Source: a virus. From it: a stretch of DNA of 25,027 bases. Position 1 is the stretch's first letter; every line of letters starts with the position of its first letter. Both the position numbers and the translations under genes were made by a program. The notes beneath the pieces were generated by a model. It saw only the letters and a list, made by a program, of their open reading frames with translations, was not told the DNA's origin and did not search any database. The stretch is taken from IMG/VR virus record IMGVR_UViG_3300042505_001542, positions 1 through 25,027 of that record. The stretch is one strand, 5' to 3'. Shown piece after piece: positions 12,076 to 24,509 of the stretch.

Positions 12076-12474
12076 TTAGAGTATTTTGATTGCTTTAAGT
12101 AGCACAACAACGGCCAGCACATATAAAATTGCTTTTCTCGGCTCCTTCATCCCGGTGCCGTTGCGTGCCATACTGTGCGCCCACTTTTCGCAATTGTTCA
12201 TTAATATATTAAAATCATCATTTGCCTTATTGCCAAAGTGCGCGAGCATTTCTTGGGTGCTACTTCCACTAAGCACTGTTTTTTCGCTGCCTTGCAGTTC
12301 TCTTTTTTCCAAAAACATTTTTAACGAAATAATACTAGCGCCACCGCCACCGCAACTGCTATGCTGTGCTATCAGCTCTGCTCCTGTGGTGTTATCTATT
12401 ACAATTCCGTAATGCCGGAAAAGCGGATTCCCAAGCATTTGCCGCCAAATAATATCGCCATTTTGCAATTTCAT
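12076..12474 (-). CDS. LRAT/NlpC-P60-like cysteine hydrolase with C-terminal membrane anchor
   Basis: The protein has 132 residues. NGDIIW near the start, RHYGIVID with His21, and NNCEKWAH with Cys95 follow the order of the LRAT (H-rev107) fold: H-box first and NCEHF-like box last, the permuted form of NlpC/P60. A membrane helix closes the protein (about 115-130). LRAT-type enzymes transfer or cleave acyl chains of phospholipids, and bacterial relatives cleave amide bonds. Tail-anchored in a membrane, it could remodel lipid during virion entry or assembly, or cut cell-wall peptides. The motifs are seen; the substrate is inferred. The EKW in place of EHF is a deviation. Confidence 0.7.
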   Translation of the reverse strand: MKLQNGDIIWRQMLGNPLFRHYGIVIDNTTGAELIAQHSSCGGGGASIISLKMFLEKRELQGSEKTVLSGSSTQEMLAHFGNKANDDFNILMNNCEKWAHSMARNGTGMKEPRKAILYVLAVVVLLKAIKIL

Positions 12475-12792: not shown

Positions 12793-13635
12793 TTACTTTT
12801 TCAAGAGCCGCGCCCAGAAGATCTCCTTTTTGATCTTTAGGTCTGCAGTCGGGTTATTCTTCTCAAAGGTGTCAATTCCTATAAGGTCGTACTTGCCTGG
12901 CTCCTTCATCCAGCGCACCAGGTTTTCCGGTGTTGGTGTCAGTCGCTTTTTATTGTCTGCCCCTTCATCTACAAATTGACTGTATAACGAACGGTTTGCC
13001 TCAAATGATTGCGCTACTTCCAGTATTTGTGACATGCTGAGTTTAGCAAACTCGCCTGCGCTTCCCATTTCGGAAAGTTTGGCCACTTCTGCCTTGGCCG
13101 CTGCTTTTTCGCTATCGCTACGCTTGGCCTTTTCTGCTTTGCCAGACTTGCTGCCGGTGGCTTTATTTGGCGCTTCTTTGTGGTAGCCAGGATAATATTT
13201 ACGGGTTAAGGTAATTTCTTGAAAGCCATTTTTAGGCCTGCCGGTCTTTACAAAGTCTTTTTCGGATAGCTCCTTGATAGCTGCATCTGTATCGGCCTCA
13301 TCGCTTCCTTTTCTTGCCGTGAATGATGAACTAAATAACTCGTGGCCCTGACCACGCCTATGTATCAGCATTTTTAAAGTGCGCTCAGCATTTAATGAAA
13401 GTCGAGGACCTTCAACATTTACTTTGGCCTTCTTTGCCGCTTTCGGCTTTGCCTTGCTCAATTGATCATTAAGCGCGGCCACGTAGTTGTCAATGCCAGC
13501 TTTAAAGTCGCCACCTTCTGAATAGAATGGTGCCACGGCTTTGAGTTGTTCACCGTCCTGCTTCATGCTGGCCGGTAGTTTGGACCAATCTACCTTGGAT
13601 AGATCTGCCGCGAATTGTTCTGCTCTTACTTTCAT
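12793..13635 (-). CDS. Basic polyvalent-type protein
   Basis: The protein has 280 residues, Lys/Ala-rich, with linkers (KPKAAKKAKVNV; KAEKAKRSDSEKAAAK) that separate small modules: about 1-60 helical, 75-145 a winged-helix-like part (RTLKMLIHRRGQGHEL, then QEITLTRKYYPG), 195-280 helical. No TM. It starts within the stop of the 868-residue gene (GAATGA). Its make-up and place suggest a protein that travels with DNA into the host, as proposed for polyvalent proteins. No specific enzyme motif recognised. Confidence 0.55.
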   Translation of the reverse strand: MKVRAEQFAADLSKVDWSKLPASMKQDGEQLKAVAPFYSEGGDFKAGIDNYVAALNDQLSKAKPKAAKKAKVNVEGPRLSLNAERTLKMLIHRRGQGHELFSSSFTARKGSDEADTDAAIKELSEKDFVKTGRPKNGFQEITLTRKYYPGYHKEAPNKATGSKSGKAEKAKRSDSEKAAAKAEVAKLSEMGSAGEFAKLSMSQILEVAQSFEANRSLYSQFVDEGADNKKRLTPTPENLVRWMKEPGKYDLIGIDTFEKNNPTADLKIKKEIFWARLLKK

Positions 13636-16238
13636 TCTGCTGCGTATTTGTATTTCATGGCCATGGCCACTGCCAAGGCGCGTGCTTTTATCTTTTCAAT
13701 AGAATCGGTTGGTGGCTCCACCAGCGGCTTTGCGTAATATCGTTCTTTGGCCACTTTATCCACGGCCAGTGTTATGCTTCCATTGCCAGATAGCAGCAAG
13801 TTGCCCTTGCCACCTTCTATGCGGTATTTATTGCCTTTGGGCATTGGTATTTCCATTACCACCACGCTTTTGGTGTTCCATACCTCAAATGCCTTCTTGT
13901 CAATGTTCCAGTGTACTGTCCAGCCATATTCCTTCACTCCTTCGTGAATCAGTTTGCCAAACGCTTCTGCAGAAATTGGGCTTTCTTGCGTTCCGGGTGC
14001 TTCATTTTTCTGAAATAGCCTTTCAAATGTCTGTTGGGCGTTCAGACCTTCGGTCCATGCTTGTTGCAGTTCAAATTCTTTCGCTTGCAGCATTCCGGTG
14101 GCATCGCTTCTGTCTACGCCAATATCGTTTTGAATACGAAATAGCATTTTCTCGTACCAATTGCCATAGGGTTCAGGCTCTGCCTTTTGCAAAGTGTTAA
14201 CGCTCATAAATCGCTCCTGGTTCCCGTCCTGTACCTTGGCCACGCCTTCTTGGTCCATTTCTATAAACGTGACAGAAGTCATACCATGATCCTTGAACTT
14301 TTTCTCTAGCGTATCGCCTTTCTTCCAGCCCTTTGGTGCTTTGATTGGTGGTTTGCTGTCGGCTCCGGCAAAGGTGTTTGCGCTGGCCTCGTCTTTGAAG
14401 ATAAAACCAGGCACGGCACCGTTGCCACGGAAACTGCTGTAGTATGCTCCTGCTGCTTTGGCCTTGTTTCTAAGCTCGTTAAAATCTTCTGCAGATACGC
14501 GCCCGGTCATGGTAACGGTCCAAATGTCGCTGCCCGTCTTGGTGTGCTTTCCTGCTACTACATTAAATTCAATGTCGGAAGCTGAAACGATTGGCTTAGT
14601 GCTTACCGGCTTTTTATCTGGCTGCGTTACTTTCTTTTGCGCTTTTGGCTGATCAACTATGCCTGCAATCTGCCTTGCGTTTTTCCATGCGCTTTCTACT
14701 CGTTTGCCATAGTATTCTTCAAATTGATCTTGCTTGGTGTAGCCATAAAGTTTCATGGCCAGCCCTTTGTATTCTGCCAAACTCATGGCAGCAGCATCCT
14801 TGTCCAGCTCTATAGAAGATATGGAAGCGGTCAATTTATCTTTGAACGCATACCCTTTTTTCGGGTGCTCTGGTGGAATAAAACGTATGTCATAATCCAT
14901 AGACCACCTGCTGCGTCCGTTTGGCGCTTTGGTAATAATGGCCGAAATGGTTTTTTTACCTAGTTCGTTCCAATCCCTTGTATATTTTACAATGGTCCAT
15001 TTTGGAACCAGCCCAAGTTCTTGTTTGACTTTGGCAGCTTCTTCGCTTCGCTTCTTGGTCTGTGCATCCCACTTCTCGGAGGATTGCTTCCAATCTTCCA
15101 CTTCCTTTTTCCGGTCTGCAAATAGTTTTGCATCCCAATCGTCCGTGTTTATATCAACATGGTCGTAAAAATTGGTATTGAAATAATCAATCTGACCATC
15201 AGAATCACTAAAACGGTACTGCTCCAGAATGTTCTTAGCAATAGCCTCATCTTTCAGGTACTGAGCACTGTATATTGTTTTATAGTGACCATGGTAACGA
15301 TCATGGTTTCTGGCCTTATGATAGCCACCTAGCTCATTGGCCAGATCAATAAACTCTTGTGCATAAGGGTTATGCGGATAATTGGTGCCATTTGCACTTA
15401 TGCTGGCACCGCCAGAAAAAACATCTGTGGTAACGCTCCACTTCATTTCTGGAAACGTGACCTTGTACTCTTCTCTGGCCAGCGCGGCAATGTCCTTGGT
15501 GGCCAGTCCTCGCGTGTTTTTGTACGCGGAACCTTCCCACCTGTAGCCTGTATATCCACGGTCTGGCTCCTTGAATAAATAAGGCTTAGTGGCTTTTAGC
15601 ACCGGTGTTACTGACCTGAAAAACTGGTCGGTCATTTGCTTTACAAATTCATCGCTGGAGTAAGTGCTCCAGTCGGCACCTTCTGCAGTTGCTTTATCGA
15701 CAAAGTTGAAACCGGCCAGAAGGTTGGCATCATTCTGCACGCTGCCCTTTATCTTCAATCGGTGCTCTGTGAAAAATGCCTTATCCACGATAATGCCCGG
15801 TGCTTTCGGTTCGTCCTGCTTGTCGTTGTTCAGCGCATCTTTCCATGCATCGCCTATGTGGCTATCGCCATCGCCCTCACTTTCTGTAAGGCCAAAGGTA
15901 TTGGCACTGAAACCGGAACCGGGTTTAGGTTGGTCGCGTTGCGGCACTTCGCCTGCATCGAGCTTCTGCTCAAATATGGCCACGGCCTTGTAATGTTCGG
16001 CCTTAACGGTGGCCTCAGTTGCGCTGCCTGTTACTTCGCCAAGCTCAATTTTTGGAGCCCTGAACATATTCCATACCAGAGAACCATCTTCGTATTGCCA
16101 AGCAGTTGCGTAGCTGGCAATTTTGCCGCTGCTGCGTTTTAAGGTGGTTATTTTCCATGTATATTCATCCTGGTCGCCCGGAAAACTTGTTTCTCCGGTC
16201 CATCCGTGGCTGCCTTTATATATTTTAGATAAACTCAT
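13632..16238 (-). CDS. Large multidomain polyvalent protein
   Basis: The protein has 868 residues, the largest product here. Modules by eye: 8-95, a WKITTLKRSSGKIASYATA domain common in Bacteroidota mobile-element polyproteins; 247-330, KDIAALAREEYKVTFPEMKW then SVTTDVFSGGASI, matching LPD29; about 395-470, an alpha/beta stretch; about 575-640, YYSSFRGNGAVPGFIFKDEA, another segment frequent in such proteins; about 650-690, a small beta barrel; and a C-terminal tag ALAVAMAMKYKYAAE. No catalytic site is clear. Polyvalent proteins are thought to enter the cell with the genome and counter defences. It is flanked by a 38-bp direct repeat. Confidence 0.7.
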   Translation of the reverse strand: MSLSKIYKGSHGWTGETSFPGDQDEYTWKITTLKRSSGKIASYATAWQYEDGSLVWNMFRAPKIELGEVTGSATEATVKAEHYKAVAIFEQKLDAGEVPQRDQPKPGSGFSANTFGLTESEGDGDSHIGDAWKDALNNDKQDEPKAPGIIVDKAFFTEHRLKIKGSVQNDANLLAGFNFVDKATAEGADWSTYSSDEFVKQMTDQFFRSVTPVLKATKPYLFKEPDRGYTGYRWEGSAYKNTRGLATKDIAALAREEYKVTFPEMKWSVTTDVFSGGASISANGTNYPHNPYAQEFIDLANELGGYHKARNHDRYHGHYKTIYSAQYLKDEAIAKNILEQYRFSDSDGQIDYFNTNFYDHVDINTDDWDAKLFADRKKEVEDWKQSSEKWDAQTKKRSEEAAKVKQELGLVPKWTIVKYTRDWNELGKKTISAIITKAPNGRSRWSMDYDIRFIPPEHPKKGYAFKDKLTASISSIELDKDAAAMSLAEYKGLAMKLYGYTKQDQFEEYYGKRVESAWKNARQIAGIVDQPKAQKKVTQPDKKPVSTKPIVSASDIEFNVVAGKHTKTGSDIWTVTMTGRVSAEDFNELRNKAKAAGAYYSSFRGNGAVPGFIFKDEASANTFAGADSKPPIKAPKGWKKGDTLEKKFKDHGMTSVTFIEMDQEGVAKVQDGNQERFMSVNTLQKAEPEPYGNWYEKMLFRIQNDIGVDRSDATGMLQAKEFELQQAWTEGLNAQQTFERLFQKNEAPGTQESPISAEAFGKLIHEGVKEYGWTVHWNIDKKAFEVWNTKSVVVMEIPMPKGNKYRIEGGKGNLLLSGNGSITLAVDKVAKERYYAKPLVEPPTDSIEKIKARALAVAMAMKYKYAAE
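13638..13675. repeat. 38-bp direct repeat, copy 1
   Basis: Identical to 16238-16275, exactly 2,600 bp away. It encodes the final residues (ALAVAMAMKYKYAA, part) of the 868-residue protein. Copy 2 encodes the same ending of the preceding protein. Confidence 0.9.
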
Positions 16239-16792
16239 GCTGCGTATTTGTATTTCATGGCCATGGCCACTGCCAGAGCTTTGGCGTGTTGGTATGCGTC
16301 AAGGTCAAATGCAGGCGTGTCGCCAATGCATTCGTCTTTGAACTGCTCCAGCTTTTCGTCTATTTCGTGTTCGATCTGTCCTACATCGGTAAGGATCTGC
16401 GCACGGTATTTCACCTTGCCTATTTTCAGGATCTCAATGATCTCTTGGCGTATGCGCTGCTCGTCAAAGTCTGGCGGCAGCAGGTTATCGGCCTCTGGCC
16501 CGTAACGCTCATAGATCTCTTCTGCGGCACGCTCAACGGAAACGCCACGTTTGCTTACCAGGTTTATGTTGATATCGCCACGGGTGCCAACTTTGCCGCC
16601 CGTTTCGCGCTTGGCGCTGGCAGGCGTAATCTTTGGCATGCGCTCCAAAACCACAAGCTCCGGAACGTGATCTTCTGCATAGAGCTGCGCTATCTCCAGC
16701 ATATCTTTTTCGCGCTCCAGTTCGGCCACGTCCAGTTTAAGGCTGTCGCAGTGTTCGTCTTTGGTGCAAGTATGGCAGGTTTCCGTATGCAT
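16235..16792 (-). CDS. Polyvalent-type protein with Cys-rich N-terminus
   Basis: The protein has 185 residues. CHTCTKDEHC at 6-15 may bind zinc. A coiled-coil segment follows (about 18-45), then VSKRGVSVERAAEEIYERYG (about 84-103), like small modules of polyvalent proteins. The acidic helical end carries the tag ALAVAMAMKYKYAA, shared with the 868-residue protein. The ATG at 16792 lies inside an operator-like palindrome and five bases after a TATCTTTG box, so this gene probably starts its own transcript. Confidence 0.6.
   Translation of the reverse strand: MHTETCHTCTKDEHCDSLKLDVAELEREKDMLEIAQLYAEDHVPELVVLERMPKITPASAKRETGGKVGTRGDININLVSKRGVSVERAAEEIYERYGPEADNLLPPDFDEQRIRQEIIEILKIGKVKYRAQILTDVGQIEHEIDEKLEQFKDECIGDTPAFDLDAYQHAKALAVAMAMKYKYAA
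16238..16275. repeat. 38-bp direct repeat, copy 2
   Basis: Identical to 13638-13675. It begins at the first base of the 868-residue gene's start codon and codes for the C-terminus of the 185-residue protein upstream. Confidence 0.9.
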
Positions 16793-19601: not shown

Positions 19602-20050
19602 TTTTTTTCATCTGTAAAAAATAGCTCTGCTTCGGCCTTCCTTCTATTGGCAAGTCCTTGCACGAATCTTCCACCTGCCCGGTTCCAACGCAGCCACGCT
19701 TCTGTAATGCGCTCCTGAGTGTCATAAGCATTAATGCGTTCTTTCAGCGTGCTATCGCGAAAAGCAGCGCTGCCTATATTGAAGATGAGCGAAACAAGCG
19801 CATCAAACTGGTTCTGGTTCAATGGTGCCAATACCTGCCCACGAATGGCAGCTTCTGCAATACCGGCATCCTTCTTTTTCAGCGCCATTGCATCTACCTT
19901 GGTCAAGGTGGCGCTCATAAGGTGCTGCTCGTTCGGCAATATCAAATGGCCATAGCCAATGGTCCAGTAGCCTGCCACGTCCTTATAGGCTGTGGGGCTG
20001 AACCCTTCCCATTGGGTAATGAACTTAATGCCGTTGTCAGATAGTGTCAT
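19586..20050 (-). CDS. GH24 (T4-type) lysozyme, endolysin
   Basis: The protein has 154 residues. WEGFSPTAYKDVAGYWTIGY gives the catalytic set Glu15, Asp24, Thr30 of T4-type lysozymes, followed by GH. LNQNQFDALVSLIFNIG (about 79-95) and WNRAGGRFVQGLANRR (about 122-137) are the usual C-terminal GH24 blocks. No signal peptide or SAR helix at the N-terminus, so release depends on the holin, unless the virion carries it. The end DEKKKPTS lies on a 10-A tract where a -1 shift adds a membrane helix. Start overlaps the previous stop. Confidence 0.92.
   Translation of the reverse strand: MTLSDNGIKFITQWEGFSPTAYKDVAGYWTIGYGHLILPNEQHLMSATLTKVDAMALKKKDAGIAEAAIRGQVLAPLNQNQFDALVSLIFNIGSAAFRDSTLKERINAYDTQERITEAWLRWNRAGGRFVQGLANRRKAEAELFFTDEKKKPTS
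19599..19608 (-). other. A10 slippery tract at the lysozyme 3' end
   Basis: On the minus strand GAA AAA AAA AAG: the heptamer A-AAA-AAA stands in the zero frame, the canonical form for -1 frameshifting, and the tract is long enough for polymerase slippage. The T10 in the plus strand is also a place where an assembly could lose a base. Confidence 0.6.
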
Positions 20051-20370
20051 GCCAACTTGTAAAGTATTAGAGCCACCACAACCAGAATAATGATCATAGT
20101 GGTCTTTGATTCAGCGGGTAGCGGTAGCTCCACAATGGGTCCTGTTTCAATCTGAATATCGTTCTTATTCAATCTGATAAGACTTTGTGCATTGCCACGC
20201 CCTTGACCTGACTGTGGCTGGGCAATGCGCGGAAAGTAGTTGCTTGGGTATGGGCTTTGTCCACAAGGCCATGAGCCGGATTCTACCCAACCGACCGATG
20301 ATTCGACCAATCTTCGGTGGGTGCATCCGCCCCCTACTGTTGTAATTGTCTGAAATCTAAATCGTGCCAT
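20047..20370 (-). CDS. Tail-anchored 107-residue protein
   Basis: It starts MARFRFQTITTVGGGCTHRR, with a Gly/Pro/Gln-rich middle (YFPRIAQPQSGQGRGNAQSL) and a C-terminal membrane helix (about 90-106, TMIIILVVVALILYKLA). Two cysteines. It overlaps the lysozyme start by four bases. Likely a virion membrane protein; no family recognised. Confidence 0.6.
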   Translation of the reverse strand: MARFRFQTITTVGGGCTHRRLVESSVGWVESGSWPCGQSPYPSNYFPRIAQPQSGQGRGNAQSLIRLNKNDIQIETGPIVELPLPAESKTTMIIILVVVALILYKLA

Positions 20371-20405
20371 CTCTTATGTTTTTCGGATTATGCTTTGGGC
20401 TGTTA

Positions 20406-20483
20406 TCATGGCCTTAATACTTTAATGGTGATAAGCAGAGCCGCAATAATGGCCCACCTTACCATGCAGGTGTTGTCTTTCAT
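20406..20483 (-). CDS. 25-residue membrane peptide
   Basis: MKDNTCMVRWAIIAALLITI, then KVLRP. The ATG overlaps the TGA of the preceding mini-gene (ATGA). One short hydrophobic helix. Its coupling supports translation, but at this size chance cannot be excluded. Confidence 0.35.
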   Translation of the reverse strand: MKDNTCMVRWAIIAALLITIKVLRP

Positions 20484-20581
20484 CTGTCTGAGATAATTGA
20501 TACCAGGACCATAGCGCTCACTATTACAAAGAATAGTGTGAGGCTATCTTCCCACTGTTTTTTTTGGCAATTTTCGCACAT
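20480..20581 (-). CDS. 33-residue CxxC membrane peptide
   Basis: MCENCQKKQWEDSLTLFFVI continues as a membrane helix and ends SDR. CENC at 2-5 could bind metal or form a disulfide. It starts three bases before the stop of the upstream frame at 20584 and is coupled to the next mini-gene. With it, the 210 bases between 20370 and 20584 are almost fully coding. Confidence 0.4.
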   Translation of the reverse strand: MCENCQKKQWEDSLTLFFVIVSAMVLVSIISDR

Positions 20582-20583
20582 GG

Positions 20584-20748
20584 CTATCTATTTAATAGGT
20601 CGGCAATAATGGCTTGGTCAGCATTCGGTTCGTCTGCCAGTGCCATGTATGTGGCTGTGCTATCACGCACCAGCTCATCTACACTATATGCACCGGCAGA
20701 CTGATCCGAAAGTGGTACGCTTACGCTGCTACATCTGCCTCTGCGCTT
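20584..20748 (-). CDS. Acidic C-terminal extension reached by -1 shift on A9
   Basis: After residue 49 of the 20894 gene a -1 slip would continue with KRRGRCSSVSVPLSDQSAGA and on to a stop at 20584, 54 residues in all, acidic and low in rare features (SVDELVRDSTATYMALADEP). The frame has no good start of its own (only a TTG at 20778) and the stretch would otherwise be a 137-base gap in a gapless array. The fused product would have 103 residues. Confidence 0.5.
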   Translation of the reverse strand, partial: KRRGRCSSVSVPLSDQSAGAYSVDELVRDSTATYMALADEPNADQAIIADLLNR

Positions 20749-20894
20749 TTTTTTTCGTAGAGGTCGTAGCCTAGCCAAGCAGCAAGGGCCAAACCAACGT
20801 ACAAAGCATAGGTGTACTTCTTGGCGTAAACCAAGTAGGCACCTACAGCAGCGAGTGCAAACGGAGCCATACTCTTCAATTGGGCAGTTTCCAT
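20721..20894 (-). CDS. 57-residue membrane protein with slippery end
   Basis: METAQLKSMAPFALAAVGAY starts a protein with two hydrophobic stretches (about 10-23 and 28-43, split by KK) and a charged end (YEKKSAEADVAA). The size and Ala-rich helix recall small membrane-embedded coat proteins. The A9 tract at 20747-20755 lies under codons GAA AAA AAA. It could be made in two lengths, 57 and 103 residues. 35 bases separate it from the stop of the upstream gene. Confidence 0.6.
   Translation of the reverse strand: METAQLKSMAPFALAAVGAYLVYAKKYTYALYVGLALAAWLGYDLYEKKSAEADVAA
20747..20755 (-). other. A9 slippery tract
   Basis: GAA AAA AAA AGC on the minus strand contains A-AAA-AAA in the zero frame. 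It is the same context (GAA, run of A, GC) and the same shift direction as at 19599-19608. Confidence 0.6.
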
Positions 20895-20929
20895 TTTTAC
20901 TGTTGTTTAGGGTTAATAAATCGGGTTAA

Positions 20930-21223
20930 TTATCCTCTAAGCACCACGCTATAAGACGTAGAAGCTATATTAAAACTGTTGTCTTGACCTGCAGAAGAAC
21001 GCGCATCTGCAGAGCTTACCGGTGTGCGGCTGCCAATGGTGTTGATCGTTGCGGGTGTGCTCCTGTCTGTAATGGTGTTTACTCCATCGCGTATTTCGTC
21101 AGCAAGGTCGATTATAGGTCGCCCGCTATTGGTAGTGGTCGGCTTCACAATGCTGCGAAAAAAGTAGTAATAGATCAGAAGAGCTGCGCCCACAAGTAGG
21201 GCAATTTTGGTGGTGTTGTTCAT
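20930..21223 (-). CDS. N-anchored 97-residue membrane protein
   Basis: MNNTTKIALLVGAALLIYYY gives an N-terminal membrane helix (about 6-23) with FFR behind it, then a polar Ser/Thr/Asp-rich region without cysteines. The K-x-A-x2-VGAALL start resembles the next two genes upstream (21226-21699 and 21699-22052), so they may be old paralogs. Likely exposes its soluble part on one face of a virion or cell membrane. Confidence 0.6.
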   Translation of the reverse strand: MNNTTKIALLVGAALLIYYYFFRSIVKPTTTNSGRPIIDLADEIRDGVNTITDRSTPATINTIGSRTPVSSADARSSAGQDNSFNIASTSYSVVLRG

Positions 21224-21225
21224 GG

Positions 21226-21699
21226 TTAGAATTGAAAGTTTATTCCTTTGTTTGCAATGATCTCGTTAACTTCTGCATAGCCATCTTGGCCTATCCAGCT
21301 TTCGTGTATAAAACTCTGGCCAAGGCCAAGCGGGCCAGAAGGCACGCCAAATATTCGTAGGTTACGGGTGCCGTATGCGTTCACCAATGCGGCAAGGTCG
21401 GCTGCTGTGCTCATTTGTTCAATGATGCTATAGACCGTGCTCCAGCGGGTGCCGCTGTAGTTCATCGCTTCGTGCAGGCTGTCGGCATACATCAAATAGC
21501 GCTCTGGCGGATAACTTAACTGCGAAGTTTGAACCGGCAGCTCGTTATCTTCATTTACTGCCGTTTCGCCCGGACCGGTGAATGCTTCTGTAATGCTGCT
21601 GCCCCAACTTCCTAGCTTATCCATGATAAGCCAAACGCCAAGCAGCACCAATAAGGCGGCACCAACGTAAAAAGCTACTTTTTTCTGGTTCTCGTCCAT
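21226..21699 (-). CDS. N-anchored 157-residue membrane protein
   Basis: MDENQKKVAFYVGAALLVLL starts a membrane helix (about 8-28), then a helical soluble domain (about 60-150: YPPERYLMYADSLHEAMNYS; VYSIIEQMSTAADLAALVNA; NLRIFGVPSG). DLAALVNAYGTRN followed by an FG motif recalls small helical modules of phage structural proteins. One-base overlap with the gene upstream. Function unknown. Confidence 0.6.
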   Translation of the reverse strand: MDENQKKVAFYVGAALLVLLGVWLIMDKLGSWGSSITEAFTGPGETAVNEDNELPVQTSQLSYPPERYLMYADSLHEAMNYSGTRWSTVYSIIEQMSTAADLAALVNAYGTRNLRIFGVPSGPLGLGQSFIHESWIGQDGYAEVNEIIANKGINFQF

Positions 21700-22052
21700 T
21701 ATGCGCGTTTGATTCTGCCAGCGTGGTCAGGGTTGCTGGCCGGTGCTTTCAGGTTGGTAATGATGAAATGCGCTCCAGCCTTATTCACAATGTCAAGCAC
21801 CTGCGCATTGCCCTTTGGTGTTTCCGAGTTGTCGTGGTCAATCACTATGCTGTCGCCCACCTTTAGGCCATGGCCATCGTTTGGCATCTGCAGCCCTAAT
21901 CGGGCATCATTGTACCTGGTAGGCAGCCAGCGGCTGTCTCCAATGTTCACAAACGGTTTCCACTGGCTGCGCCAGAAATAATAGCCCACTATAGCGGTAA
22001 GCAGAAGCGCTCCAATGCCAATGGCATATTTTTGTGTGGTTGTCAGTGTCAT
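21699..22052 (-). CDS. N-anchored 117-residue membrane protein with beta domain
   Basis: MTLTTTQKYAIGIGALLLTA opens a membrane helix (about 9-26) with WRSQWK after it. The rest looks like a small beta barrel (GDSIVIDHDNSETPKGNAQV; AHFIITNLKAPASN). It overlaps both neighbours. Same plan as 16813-17196. Candidate virion membrane protein. Confidence 0.6.
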   Translation of the reverse strand: MTLTTTQKYAIGIGALLLTAIVGYYFWRSQWKPFVNIGDSRWLPTRYNDARLGLQMPNDGHGLKVGDSIVIDHDNSETPKGNAQVLDIVNKAGAHFIITNLKAPASNPDHAGRIKRA

Positions 22053-22498
22053 TTTTTGAATATAAAGTAGCCGATTCCTAGTAGAACGATAACCAATATG
22101 CCTACGGTCATTTTTGACATGCCTAGGATAGTCGTTTGCGAATCGTCCGATTCTCCGTAATTCGGTTCCTCGTAAGTTTCTCCTGGTCCGGTTTCGGTAG
22201 GTGGGGCAGGTGGTAGATTAACACTGCCACCAACTCTCGATATGCTGGCATTTTCCAGTCTTAGGGTTTTTAGTACCGGAATGCCCATAGACGGAAGCGT
22301 TACCGTAACTTTTTGAAGTCCGTCCTCGTTAGAGTTGGAACGTATCGGCAGAGGAATGTCGTTTAATATCCAGCCCGAAGTAATCCCGGACAACTTAATA
22401 AAGCCAGGTGCTTTAATTATGTTTCTCAGAGGGTCATTGACCCACATTGTAAGAACAGAGCCTTCTTTCTGGTAAATAAGTACGGGTGTCTGTGTCAT
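22049..22498 (-). CDS. Tail-anchored 149-residue beta protein
   Basis: It has a beta-rich soluble domain (MTQTPVLIYQKEGSVLTMWV; GLQKVTVTLPSMGIPVLKTL), a Pro/Glu/Gly linker (PPAPPTETGPGETYEEPNYG), and a C-terminal membrane helix (about 131-147) ending FKK. Domain, linker, anchor is the order expected for a peripheral virion protein held on an inner membrane. Confidence 0.65.
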   Translation of the reverse strand: MTQTPVLIYQKEGSVLTMWVNDPLRNIIKAPGFIKLSGITSGWILNDIPLPIRSNSNEDGLQKVTVTLPSMGIPVLKTLRLENASISRVGGSVNLPPAPPTETGPGETYEEPNYGESDDSQTTILGMSKMTVGILVIVLLGIGYFIFKK

Positions 22499-22749
22499 TT
22501 AAGTGCGTATTTGTAGATGAGAAAACCGACCACCAGCACCACGGCCAGCGTCAATAGGTCGTTTTTTGGCTCCACTGGTTTGTTCTGCACGCTCAATTGT
22601 CGGCCACTTCCACCAGTGCCACTGGCACGGCCAAACACTCGATCATAGCAGGCGGCTTTGCGCTCTGCGCTTGCTCCGTGCGGCCAGCCTGTCAGCTCTG
22701 CCCACCAGAGGCACCTTTCCAATCTTGCTTGTGGTCCAAATAATGCCAT
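22495..22749 (-). CDS. Tail-anchored 84-residue protein
   Basis: MALFGPQARLERCLWWAELT then a CYDRVFGR segment and a polar linker. The C-terminal membrane helix (about 65-80, LLTLAVVLVVGFLIYKY) ends ALK. Two cysteines (13, 34) flank a helical hairpin-like domain. Coupled to the next gene by four bases. Confidence 0.6.
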   Translation of the reverse strand: MALFGPQARLERCLWWAELTGWPHGASAERKAACYDRVFGRASGTGGSGRQLSVQNKPVEPKNDLLTLAVVLVVGFLIYKYALK

Positions 22750-22754
22750 GTTTT

Positions 22755-23183
22755 CTATTTCAAGTTTATGGTTACAACTGCAGTAAGTAGCACAACGGCC
22801 ACTGCTAGCAGAATCAAATTCCTTTTTGTGTTATCTGATGTCGTGAATAAGGTTATCTCTGTATCTGTAGGCCCTGAAAATGGGTCGGTAACGGGTTCGG
22901 GTGTAGGTTCTTGGTAAGGTCCTTGCTGCCATGCTCGGTTCCAATCGGCCTCTGATGCCGGTGAAGGGTTGCCAAAGGTGTTGGCCGCTGCATCGCGGTC
23001 TGCCCACTGGTAAACTTTATCGCCTGCCCATCTGATGCCGAGCACATCTTCAATAATGTTGAAGCGCACCACGTAACGCTGGCCGCGCGGACCTTGCGCA
23101 ACGGTGGGGCCATAGGCATCCTGTCTGTAGATGCCATGGCCAGTGCTGTAGGTGTTCGGGTAACTTCCTGCCTGCCAGCTCAT
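22755..23183 (-). CDS. Tail-anchored 142-residue protein
   Basis: MSWQAGSYPNTYSTGHGIYR begins a Gly/Tyr/Trp-rich soluble region, a central RYVVRFNIIEDVLGIRWAGD segment, a Pro-rich linker and a C-terminal membrane helix (about 122-139) ending INLK. Aromatic content is high. A candidate virion protein with the same plan as its neighbours. Confidence 0.6.
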   Translation of the reverse strand: MSWQAGSYPNTYSTGHGIYRQDAYGPTVAQGPRGQRYVVRFNIIEDVLGIRWAGDKVYQWADRDAAANTFGNPSPASEADWNRAWQQGPYQEPTPEPVTDPFSGPTDTEITLFTTSDNTKRNLILLAVAVVLLTAVVTINLK

Positions 23184-23482
23184 CTTACGTTGCGGTAAAT
23201 GTTGAAAACGAAGAGCACAATGGCCGCAATGATCAGCGGATTGATCAACGGCTTGAACCAGTCATCTATCAGCACATGGTCTGGCAAATGTTCGGTTATC
23301 AAATTGCCGCCACACGTAGGTATTCTGGTTCCGTTTCCAAGCTCAATAAAGCCCGGCCTCAAAGCACCACAACCACCAGGCACATTGGCATCCTCAGCAT
23401 TATCGTACAGATAATAGCCTGCTGCCAGATTAGCGTCTGCATCCACCCGCTGGCCTAGCATATTGTAAACGATGCCGCTCAT
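23180..23482 (-). CDS. Tail-anchored 100-residue protein
   Basis: MSGIVYNMLGQRVDADANLA is followed by GGCGALRPGFIEL and RIPTCGG, whose two cysteines may bond, and then a C-terminal membrane helix (about 80-95, INPLIIAAIVLFVFNIY) ending RNVR. Overlaps its neighbours by four bases on each side. Confidence 0.6.
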   Translation of the reverse strand: MSGIVYNMLGQRVDADANLAAGYYLYDNAEDANVPGGCGALRPGFIELGNGTRIPTCGGNLITEHLPDHVLIDDWFKPLINPLIIAAIVLFVFNIYRNVR

Positions 23483-23739
23483 TTTCTAGTAAATAGATAA
23501 ACGACAAAGACCACCACTGCTGCTGCAAGCAGATAGCCTGTCGTGGTGTAGCCGGTTGTTTCGTTGTACTTCTTGCCCGGTATGCAGCGAATGCTGTTAA
23601 GGTTGCTGCTCGGTGGTATGAAACTGGCCACCAGCCCACCAATAACCGGAAAGCTGGCCACTCCTTGCTGAAAGGCTCCTATCCAGGCGTTATCTTCGTC
23701 TGGCGTTGCCCATGTTTCGCCACAAGGTAGCTGGCTCAT
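23479..23739 (-). CDS. Tail-anchored 86-residue protein
   Basis: MSQLPCGETWATPDEDNAWI, a moderately hydrophobic stretch (VASFPVIGGLVASFIPP, about 27-43) that could be a fusion-peptide-like or second membrane segment, and a C-terminal membrane helix (about 68-83) ending FTRK. Two cysteines. Coupled on both sides. Confidence 0.6.
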   Translation of the reverse strand: MSQLPCGETWATPDEDNAWIGAFQQGVASFPVIGGLVASFIPPSSNLNSIRCIPGKKYNETTGYTTTGYLLAAAVVVFVVYLFTRK

Positions 23740-23939
23740 TTTTTGGCAGTAGTGGCAAACACGGCAAAAAGCGCAATGGCAATGGCCAATATCAAGTAGA
23801 TATAAACCACTGGCATTACCTTGCTTTCGGCAGTGTAAACCGGGTTATTGTAAACGGTTTCCGAAGCATTCACGCCCTTGCCTGCTGTTCCCAAAATGCC
23901 GGAGAACATGCCTACAATGGTATTTATTGCCTCATTCAC
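23736..23939 (-). CDS. Tail-anchored 67-residue protein, GTG start
   Basis: It starts at a GTG at 23939 (reads MNEAINTIVGMFSGILGTAG); no in-frame ATG serves it. The frame is the same as that of the gene upstream, which ends in TAA 25 bases before, so read-through would fuse them. C-terminal membrane helix (about 45-62) ending TAKK. The amphipathic N-terminus plus anchor suits a small membrane-bound coat component. Confidence 0.55.
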   Translation of the reverse strand: MNEAINTIVGMFSGILGTAGKGVNASETVYNNPVYTAESKVMPVVYIYLILAIAIALFAVFATTAKK

Positions 23940-23963
23940 GATGTCAAAGAACGTGCGGCACTG

Positions 23964-24509
23964 TTACTTGCGCATGGCAATCACAATGGCCACTATCACT
24001 ACTAGCACGGCTGCGCCAACGGCCAGCCACTGTGCGTTTATTCCTGTTGTTGGTCCGTCCTTGTCTCCTGCAGGCGGTGGTGTGGTGGTGCTGCCACCGT
24101 TTCCGGTGTTGCCAATGGTCGTATTGATGCCACCGAAGATGGAATCAATGATGCCGCCCCAATCCATTTCAGAGTACCAAGACTGGTCCGATCCTTGGCC
24201 GTCCGTGGTTCGCAATTGTGGTGGCGCTGGTCGTCCAGTAATGGCCTCATCGAAACCTGCAGGCAACACGCCATACTTGTATTTCACGTTGCGGATAAGG
24301 CCAAGCGCCTGTGCCTTAATTTGGCCACCGGCATTGTAGGCTCTCACAAGCTCAGAAACCATTTGCTGTGCGGTGCTGTCGCTTTGCGTCAGGCCCCACG
24401 TTTGCATTTGGTTAGAAACGCCCTCGGTGTTGTTCTCAACCACGATGGTAAATAGGTGCAATGGGCTGTTAAGATCTCTCCTTAATGCCGCTTTTTCAGA
24501 TGCTGTCAT
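23964..24509 (-). CDS. Tail-anchored 181-residue protein
   Basis: First gene after the capsid candidate's terminator. The helical N-terminal domain (about 1-110: MTASEKAALRRDLNSPLHLF; VSELVRAYNAGGQIKAQALG) is followed by a Gly/Thr/Pro linker (GNGGSTTTPPPAGDKDGPTT) and a C-terminal membrane helix (about 161-178) ending AMRK. It likely links a membrane to the shell. No promoter box was clear between it and the terminator, so it may depend on read-through. Confidence 0.6.
   Translation of the reverse strand: MTASEKAALRRDLNSPLHLFTIVVENNTEGVSNQMQTWGLTQSDSTAQQMVSELVRAYNAGGQIKAQALGLIRNVKYKYGVLPAGFDEAITGRPAPPQLRTTDGQGSDQSWYSEMDWGGIIDSIFGGINTTIGNTGNGGSTTTPPPAGDKDGPTTGINAQWLAVGAAVLVVIVAIVIAMRK

Follow-up and report, generated by a model that had tools for sequence, protein, structure and literature searches.

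An exact 38-bp direct repeat gives two adjacent genes of an apparently tailless phage the same C-terminal peptide, possibly a virion tag

Two neighbouring genes of a virus, coding for unrelated proteins of 185 and 868 amino acids, carry near their ends the same 38 nucleotides, read in one frame and giving the same C-terminal peptide. The favoured reading, held at somewhat less than even confidence, is that this peptide is a tag on two late proteins, recently copied as DNA and used most likely for virion incorporation. The locus was studied in a window of 25,027 nucleotides, which is the whole stretch of DNA analysed, and it looks more like a pair of tagged genes than like a cassette that is still mobile. 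Its features are listed here in window coordinates.

16235..16792, minus strand: 185-aa gene, ending ...AKALAVAMAMKYKYAA
16238..16275, minus strand: upstream copy of the 38-bp repeat, the final 38 coding nucleotides of the 185-aa gene before TGA
16235..16238, minus strand: ATGA stop/start overlap from the 185-aa to the 868-aa gene
13632..16238, minus strand: 868-aa gene, encoding a polyvalent protein, ending ...ARALAVAMAMKYKYAAE
13638..13675, minus strand: downstream copy of the 38-bp repeat, C-terminal codons of the 868-aa gene, followed by GAA TGA
13632..13635, minus strand: ATGA stop/start overlap from the 868-aa to the 280-aa gene
12793..13635, minus strand: 280-aa gene, untagged, lying downstream of the segment and coupled by ATGA to the 868-aa gene

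The two copies of the repeat, TGCTGCGTATTTGTATTTCATGGCCATGGCCACTGCCA, found by repeat search, are 100% identical and lie 2600 bp apart from start to start, as the first-pass annotation of this DNA had claimed. No exact repeat in the circular genome is longer, and its shuffles (n = 30) reach 13-17 bp. Similarity stops abruptly at their edges, the 60 bp on either side having 27% and 35% identity, which is the chance level. That annotation had also placed the repeats at the start codon of the 868-aa gene and near its stop, and the position holds, the last base of the upstream copy being the A of the ATG and the downstream copy stopping 6 nt (GAA TGA) short of the ORF end. Both copies are coding on the minus strand, in the same frame and for the same C-terminal peptide, (K/R)ALAVAMAMKYKYAA, and after each copy the gene overlaps the one downstream through ATGA.

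As seen by BLAST of the proteome against itself, the only match between the 185-aa and 868-aa proteins is this tail (residues 170-185 against 852-867, E about 6e-5 to 3e-4). The four residues that precede the DNA identity are also alike, AKAL against ARAL (A[KR]AL), with all four codons differing, a likeness that proteome 4-mers give by chance with a probability of 0.0005, or 0.0065 given the Leu. Inside the repeat all 12 codons are identical, for which the probability under independent choice is about 8e-5, indicating that one copy was made from the other; since identity is complete over the 38 nt, purifying selection is unmeasurable within the repeat. The common frame, the C-terminal position and the A[KR]AL residues with different codons together point to a peptide-level reason for the shared tail. 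In addition, the 868 tail IKARALAVAMAMKYKYAAE resembles IKAQALGLIRNVKYKYGVL, an internal stretch (residues 63-81; 24267..24323, minus strand) of a 181-aa tail-anchored protein, a likeness reached in 0 of 400 shuffles for the 868 tail and 19 of 400 for the 185 tail, and this is treated as no more than suggestive. Structure models of the tail are of low confidence in both proteins; the single-sequence AlphaFold2 model of the 185-aa protein, itself of low confidence, predicts the tail as a helix. Profile and sequence searches gave no family and no relative for the 185-aa protein, and the guess that its core is a common polyvalent domain was without support when checked.

The 868-aa protein is built of an N-terminal domain, LPD29, an FRGNGAVPGF-type (FRG-type) domain, a C-terminal part without assigned family, and the tag. 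The domains are located as follows.

15927..16229, minus strand: N-terminal domain, residues 4-104, common to the two 868-like relatives (L100 and L022), with a high-confidence model
15282..15503, minus strand: LPD29, 30.4 bits in the whole-genome search, above the Pfam cut-off of 27
14364..14588, minus strand: FRGNGAVPGF-type domain, approximately residues 551-625, most of whose occurrences are in giant polyvalent proteins of phages

By hmmscan, LPD29 in the same protein scored 26.9 bits against the cut-off of 27. The first-pass description of this gene as one of the polyvalent kind is borne out by its LPD domain and by the combination of several distinct domains in a single chain. The FRG-type domain, over which no Pfam or NCBIfam family was reported in the 868-aa protein, lies mostly within single proteins of 2400-5600 aa (about 100 loci) and matches gp60 of Pseudomonas phage H66, a virion protein by mass spectrometry, as well as gp43 of Salisaeta icosahedral phage 1 (SSIP-1), annotated as structural. 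Polyvalent proteins (Iyer et al. 2017, PMC5512222), including SSIP-1 gp43 and PLxRFG-annotated phage proteins, share LPD29, the FRG-type domain and the late-gene context with the present protein; however, most of these relatives are single chains of 2400-5600 aa, whereas here there are 868 aa and separate small coupled neighbours. Fold comparison of the 868 model gave nothing in the PDB at E 0.001 and, in a viral library, mostly uncharacterised or methylase-associated proteins.

Two shorter proteins resemble the 868-aa protein, one of 438 aa from a Flammeovirgaceae MAG (L100) and one of 431 aa from a viral contig (L022), both having its N-terminal and FRG-type domains; LPD29 is a weak match in L022 and was undetected in L100. 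They terminate right past the FRG-type domain, without the 240-residue C-terminal part and without the tag, so within what was seen the tail appears peculiar to this virus. Of about 100 loci that carry an FRG-type domain, this window alone was found to have such a tail common to unrelated ORFs. As side observations, this domain of about 70 residues occurs in about 90 viral and bacterial loci; small stand-alone LPD29-like genes are present in the Mycobacterium phages Phabba (gp38; L011:6049-6534) and Myrna (gp34; L012:5956-6438); and, downstream of the 431-aa protein and separated from it by a 290-aa ORF, L022 has a methyltransferase-type gene (L022:12057-13559), coding for a 500-aa protein that matches DUF4942 (E 1.1e-25) and, weakly, the MTS methyltransferase family.

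Regarding the genome, the source record is a virus contig, and the repeat search found the first and last 127 bases of the window to be identical, indicating a circular genome of 24,900 bp. Genes for a VapE-type helicase (profile search), a phage lysozyme, a holin, a glycosyltransferase and a Cro/CI-type regulator were recognised, together with a P-loop ATPase by weak profile matches only. Many small proteins have a single strongly hydrophobic segment at one end, and the scanned proteins, a subset of the ORFs, included none recognisable as a tail protein, portal or prohead protease; the virus looks like a tailless, membrane-containing phage. Its host is likely a member of the Bacteroidota, judging by VapE matches that include phages of Cellulophaga, Flavobacterium and Bacteroides. 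No near DNA match was found among GenBank phages, and a defence-system model search gave no match. At 20047-24509 there is a row of small genes, most of them with one strongly hydrophobic C- or N-terminal segment, often Lys/Arg-ended, and the row resembles the set of membrane proteins of a phage with an internal membrane. The 132-aa protein at 12076-12474 has a hydrophobic segment at its C-terminus and a weak LRAT match (E 0.0009, below cut-off).

According to the favoured reading, the 3'-terminal 38 nt would have been recently copied between the two genes, by short duplication or gene conversion, over an older or selected peptide likeness, and the peptide would have been retained as a short C-terminal sorting tag, through which the two proteins would be loaded into the particle as cargo and injected along with the DNA. 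Its action would be like that of the T4 capsid-targeting sequence or the P1 DarB packaging signal, at the C-terminus and in an apparently tailless membrane-containing phage. For the 868-aa protein the signs of packaging are indirect, namely the likely late operon and the FRG-type domain shared with H66 gp60 and SSIP-1 gp43. In favour of such a tag are the in-frame, C-terminal position of both copies, the lack of any other match between the two proteins, the AKAL/ARAL likeness, the FRG-type domain known from virion proteins, the tail-less L100 and L022, the similar stretch in the 181-aa membrane protein, and the sufficiency of 30 residues for packaging of P1 DarB. The identity of the repeat, the common frame, the ATGA couplings and the 868 domains are observed, and from the minus-strand gene order (holin, 127 aa, 185 aa, 868 aa, 280 aa) we infer that the 185-aa, 868-aa and 280-aa genes belong to a late operon. 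Against it, the tail is certain in two adjacent proteins only, the 280-aa neighbour is without it, the 185-aa protein matches no family, the tail models are of low confidence, no relative was found in which the peptide is conserved over drifting DNA, and the capsid-targeting signals of T4 and P1 DarB are N-terminal.

The close rival is an insertion scar, where either the 868-aa gene (or a forerunner of it) came in at the 3' end of the 185-aa gene, or this 3' end was duplicated as a new gene arrived. The repeat would then be a by-product, comparable to an attachment or junction sequence that has been duplicated, and the peptide would be functionless; we regard this as possible but on balance doubtful. 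The exact 38-bp direct repeats flank a segment whose sole ORF is the 868-aa gene, and the clean excision proposed by the first-pass annotation was reproduced, as in silico removal of the 2600 bp gives a 186-aa ORF (185 plus Glu) with an ATGA overlap with the 280-aa gene. The absence of the tail from L100 and L022 also agrees with a scar, as the tail may be a gain in this genome, and so does the shift in GC3 from 0.60 in the 185-aa gene to 0.48 in the 868-aa gene. However, this break is one-sided: G+C is 0.468 in both the 868-aa and 280-aa genes and 0.526 in the 185-aa gene, and GC3 is 0.47 in the 280-aa gene, so that the 868-aa gene is not marked as foreign on both sides. Composition is weak evidence here, given its wide gene-to-gene spread. 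Moreover, the insert reads on into the tail in the correct frame, and the pre-repeat residues are alike with different codons. The segment has no recombinase or transposase domain, the proteins scanned include no recognised integrase, transposase or recombination gene, none of the inverted repeats detected in the genome marks the borders of the segment, and no relative with an empty site was found.

A live exchange cassette, as suggested in the first-pass annotation, would go further, with crossing-over between the repeats, by homologous recombination or a phage recombinase. The 868-aa gene, on this view an optional anti-defence module, would still be lost or swapped within the population, and this is very improbable. 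In its favour, the deletion product is well formed and 38 bp is within the length range usable by phage recombinases. Nevertheless, no deletion variant and no other gene in the slot was seen, the 38-mer matched no contig of the viral contig collection (a search that may hide very near records), and the scanned proteins included no recognised recombination gene. The optional-cassette reading is thus partly supported, by geometry only: the excisable arrangement stood, and nothing observed shows that the gene arrived by insertion, can still be exchanged or serves as an optional anti-defence module. An empty site, a recombinase, inverted repeats at the borders and a composition break on both sides all went unseen. 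The missing empty site itself carries little weight, as relatives of the virus were also not found: searches of the viral contig collection with the 868-aa, 185-aa, 280-aa, ATPase and capsid-like proteins and with a relaxed tag pattern gave none, the 868-aa protein as a single query gave none in the genome contig collection, the 185-aa protein had no match in 390 genomes, and the 868-aa protein matched two of 395 genomes, by domain matches only.

The DNA itself, instead of the peptide, could also have been kept as a translation-initiation element, because the A-rich end of the repeat, AAATACAAATACGCA, stands just ahead of the next coupled start in both copies and could serve as a ribosome-entry or coupling leader, the peptide then being incidental. 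A 12-mer inside both 38-bp copies, TACAAATACGCA, has a third exact copy at 22504-22515 (minus strand), five bases ahead of the ATG of another ATGA-coupled gene, and A-rich sequence is found upstream of many starts in the genome. However, this third copy also encodes YKYA in the same frame, close to the C-terminal end of an 84-aa protein with a single TM segment, and is therefore compatible with the peptide and the initiation readings alike. In addition, about 15 nt would be enough for such an element against the 38 present, folding showed no RNA structure above shuffles across the repeat, and other coupled starts are without a leader of the AAATACAAATACGCA type, all of which makes an initiation element unlikely.

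Returning to the tag, phage cargo packaging signals are known in few systems, and those of T4 and P1 are N-terminal and from tailed phages. The T4 signal is removed by the prohead protease, and the present phage differs from T4 in that no tail, portal or prohead protease is recognised among its scanned proteins. As in the T4 internal proteins with the capsid-targeting sequence, which are injected anti-restriction proteins, a short terminal peptide alone is common to otherwise unrelated proteins (PMC3012670); however, the T4 signal is N-terminal (PMC9024508), whereas the present tag is C-terminal. The P1 protein DarB is likewise a large polyvalent-type protein and is packaged into the virion via a short terminal signal, for which 30 residues suffice, but its signal is also N-terminal, against C-terminal here, and the Dar proteins have no common signal by BLAST, in contrast to the exact tail sharing of the 185-aa and 868-aa proteins (PMC9024508). 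The 868-aa protein further differs from DarB in that no methylase or helicase was recognised in it. The shared tail is not a member of the T4 or P1 signal kinds, and, as both copies are C-terminal, it is not filed as a T4-type capsid-targeting sequence.

If the favoured reading is true, this small and apparently tailless phage would offer a directly testable signal, a C-terminal tag on two unrelated proteins, and with it a means to list further cargo; if the repeat is only a duplication scar, it would be an ordinary event of genome evolution. As a more speculative and quite unlikely extension, the 38-nt 3' end may be a portable C-terminal virion-cargo tag, where a new gene becomes cargo by acquiring the gene end via recombination, and the phage would build its set of injected effectors by tag capture and not as a giant polyvalent fusion.

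Among the minor observations, the palindrome TGGCCATGGCCA, present in the two repeat copies only, was considered as a recombination site and set aside, as GGCC-type words are enriched genome-wide. Compared to dinucleotide expectation, GGCC occurs 194 times against 118 and TGGCCA 46 times against 12.6 in the genome, the second-order expectation for TGGCCA being 31.6, and GGCCATGGCC occurs 5 times in the window against 0.06.
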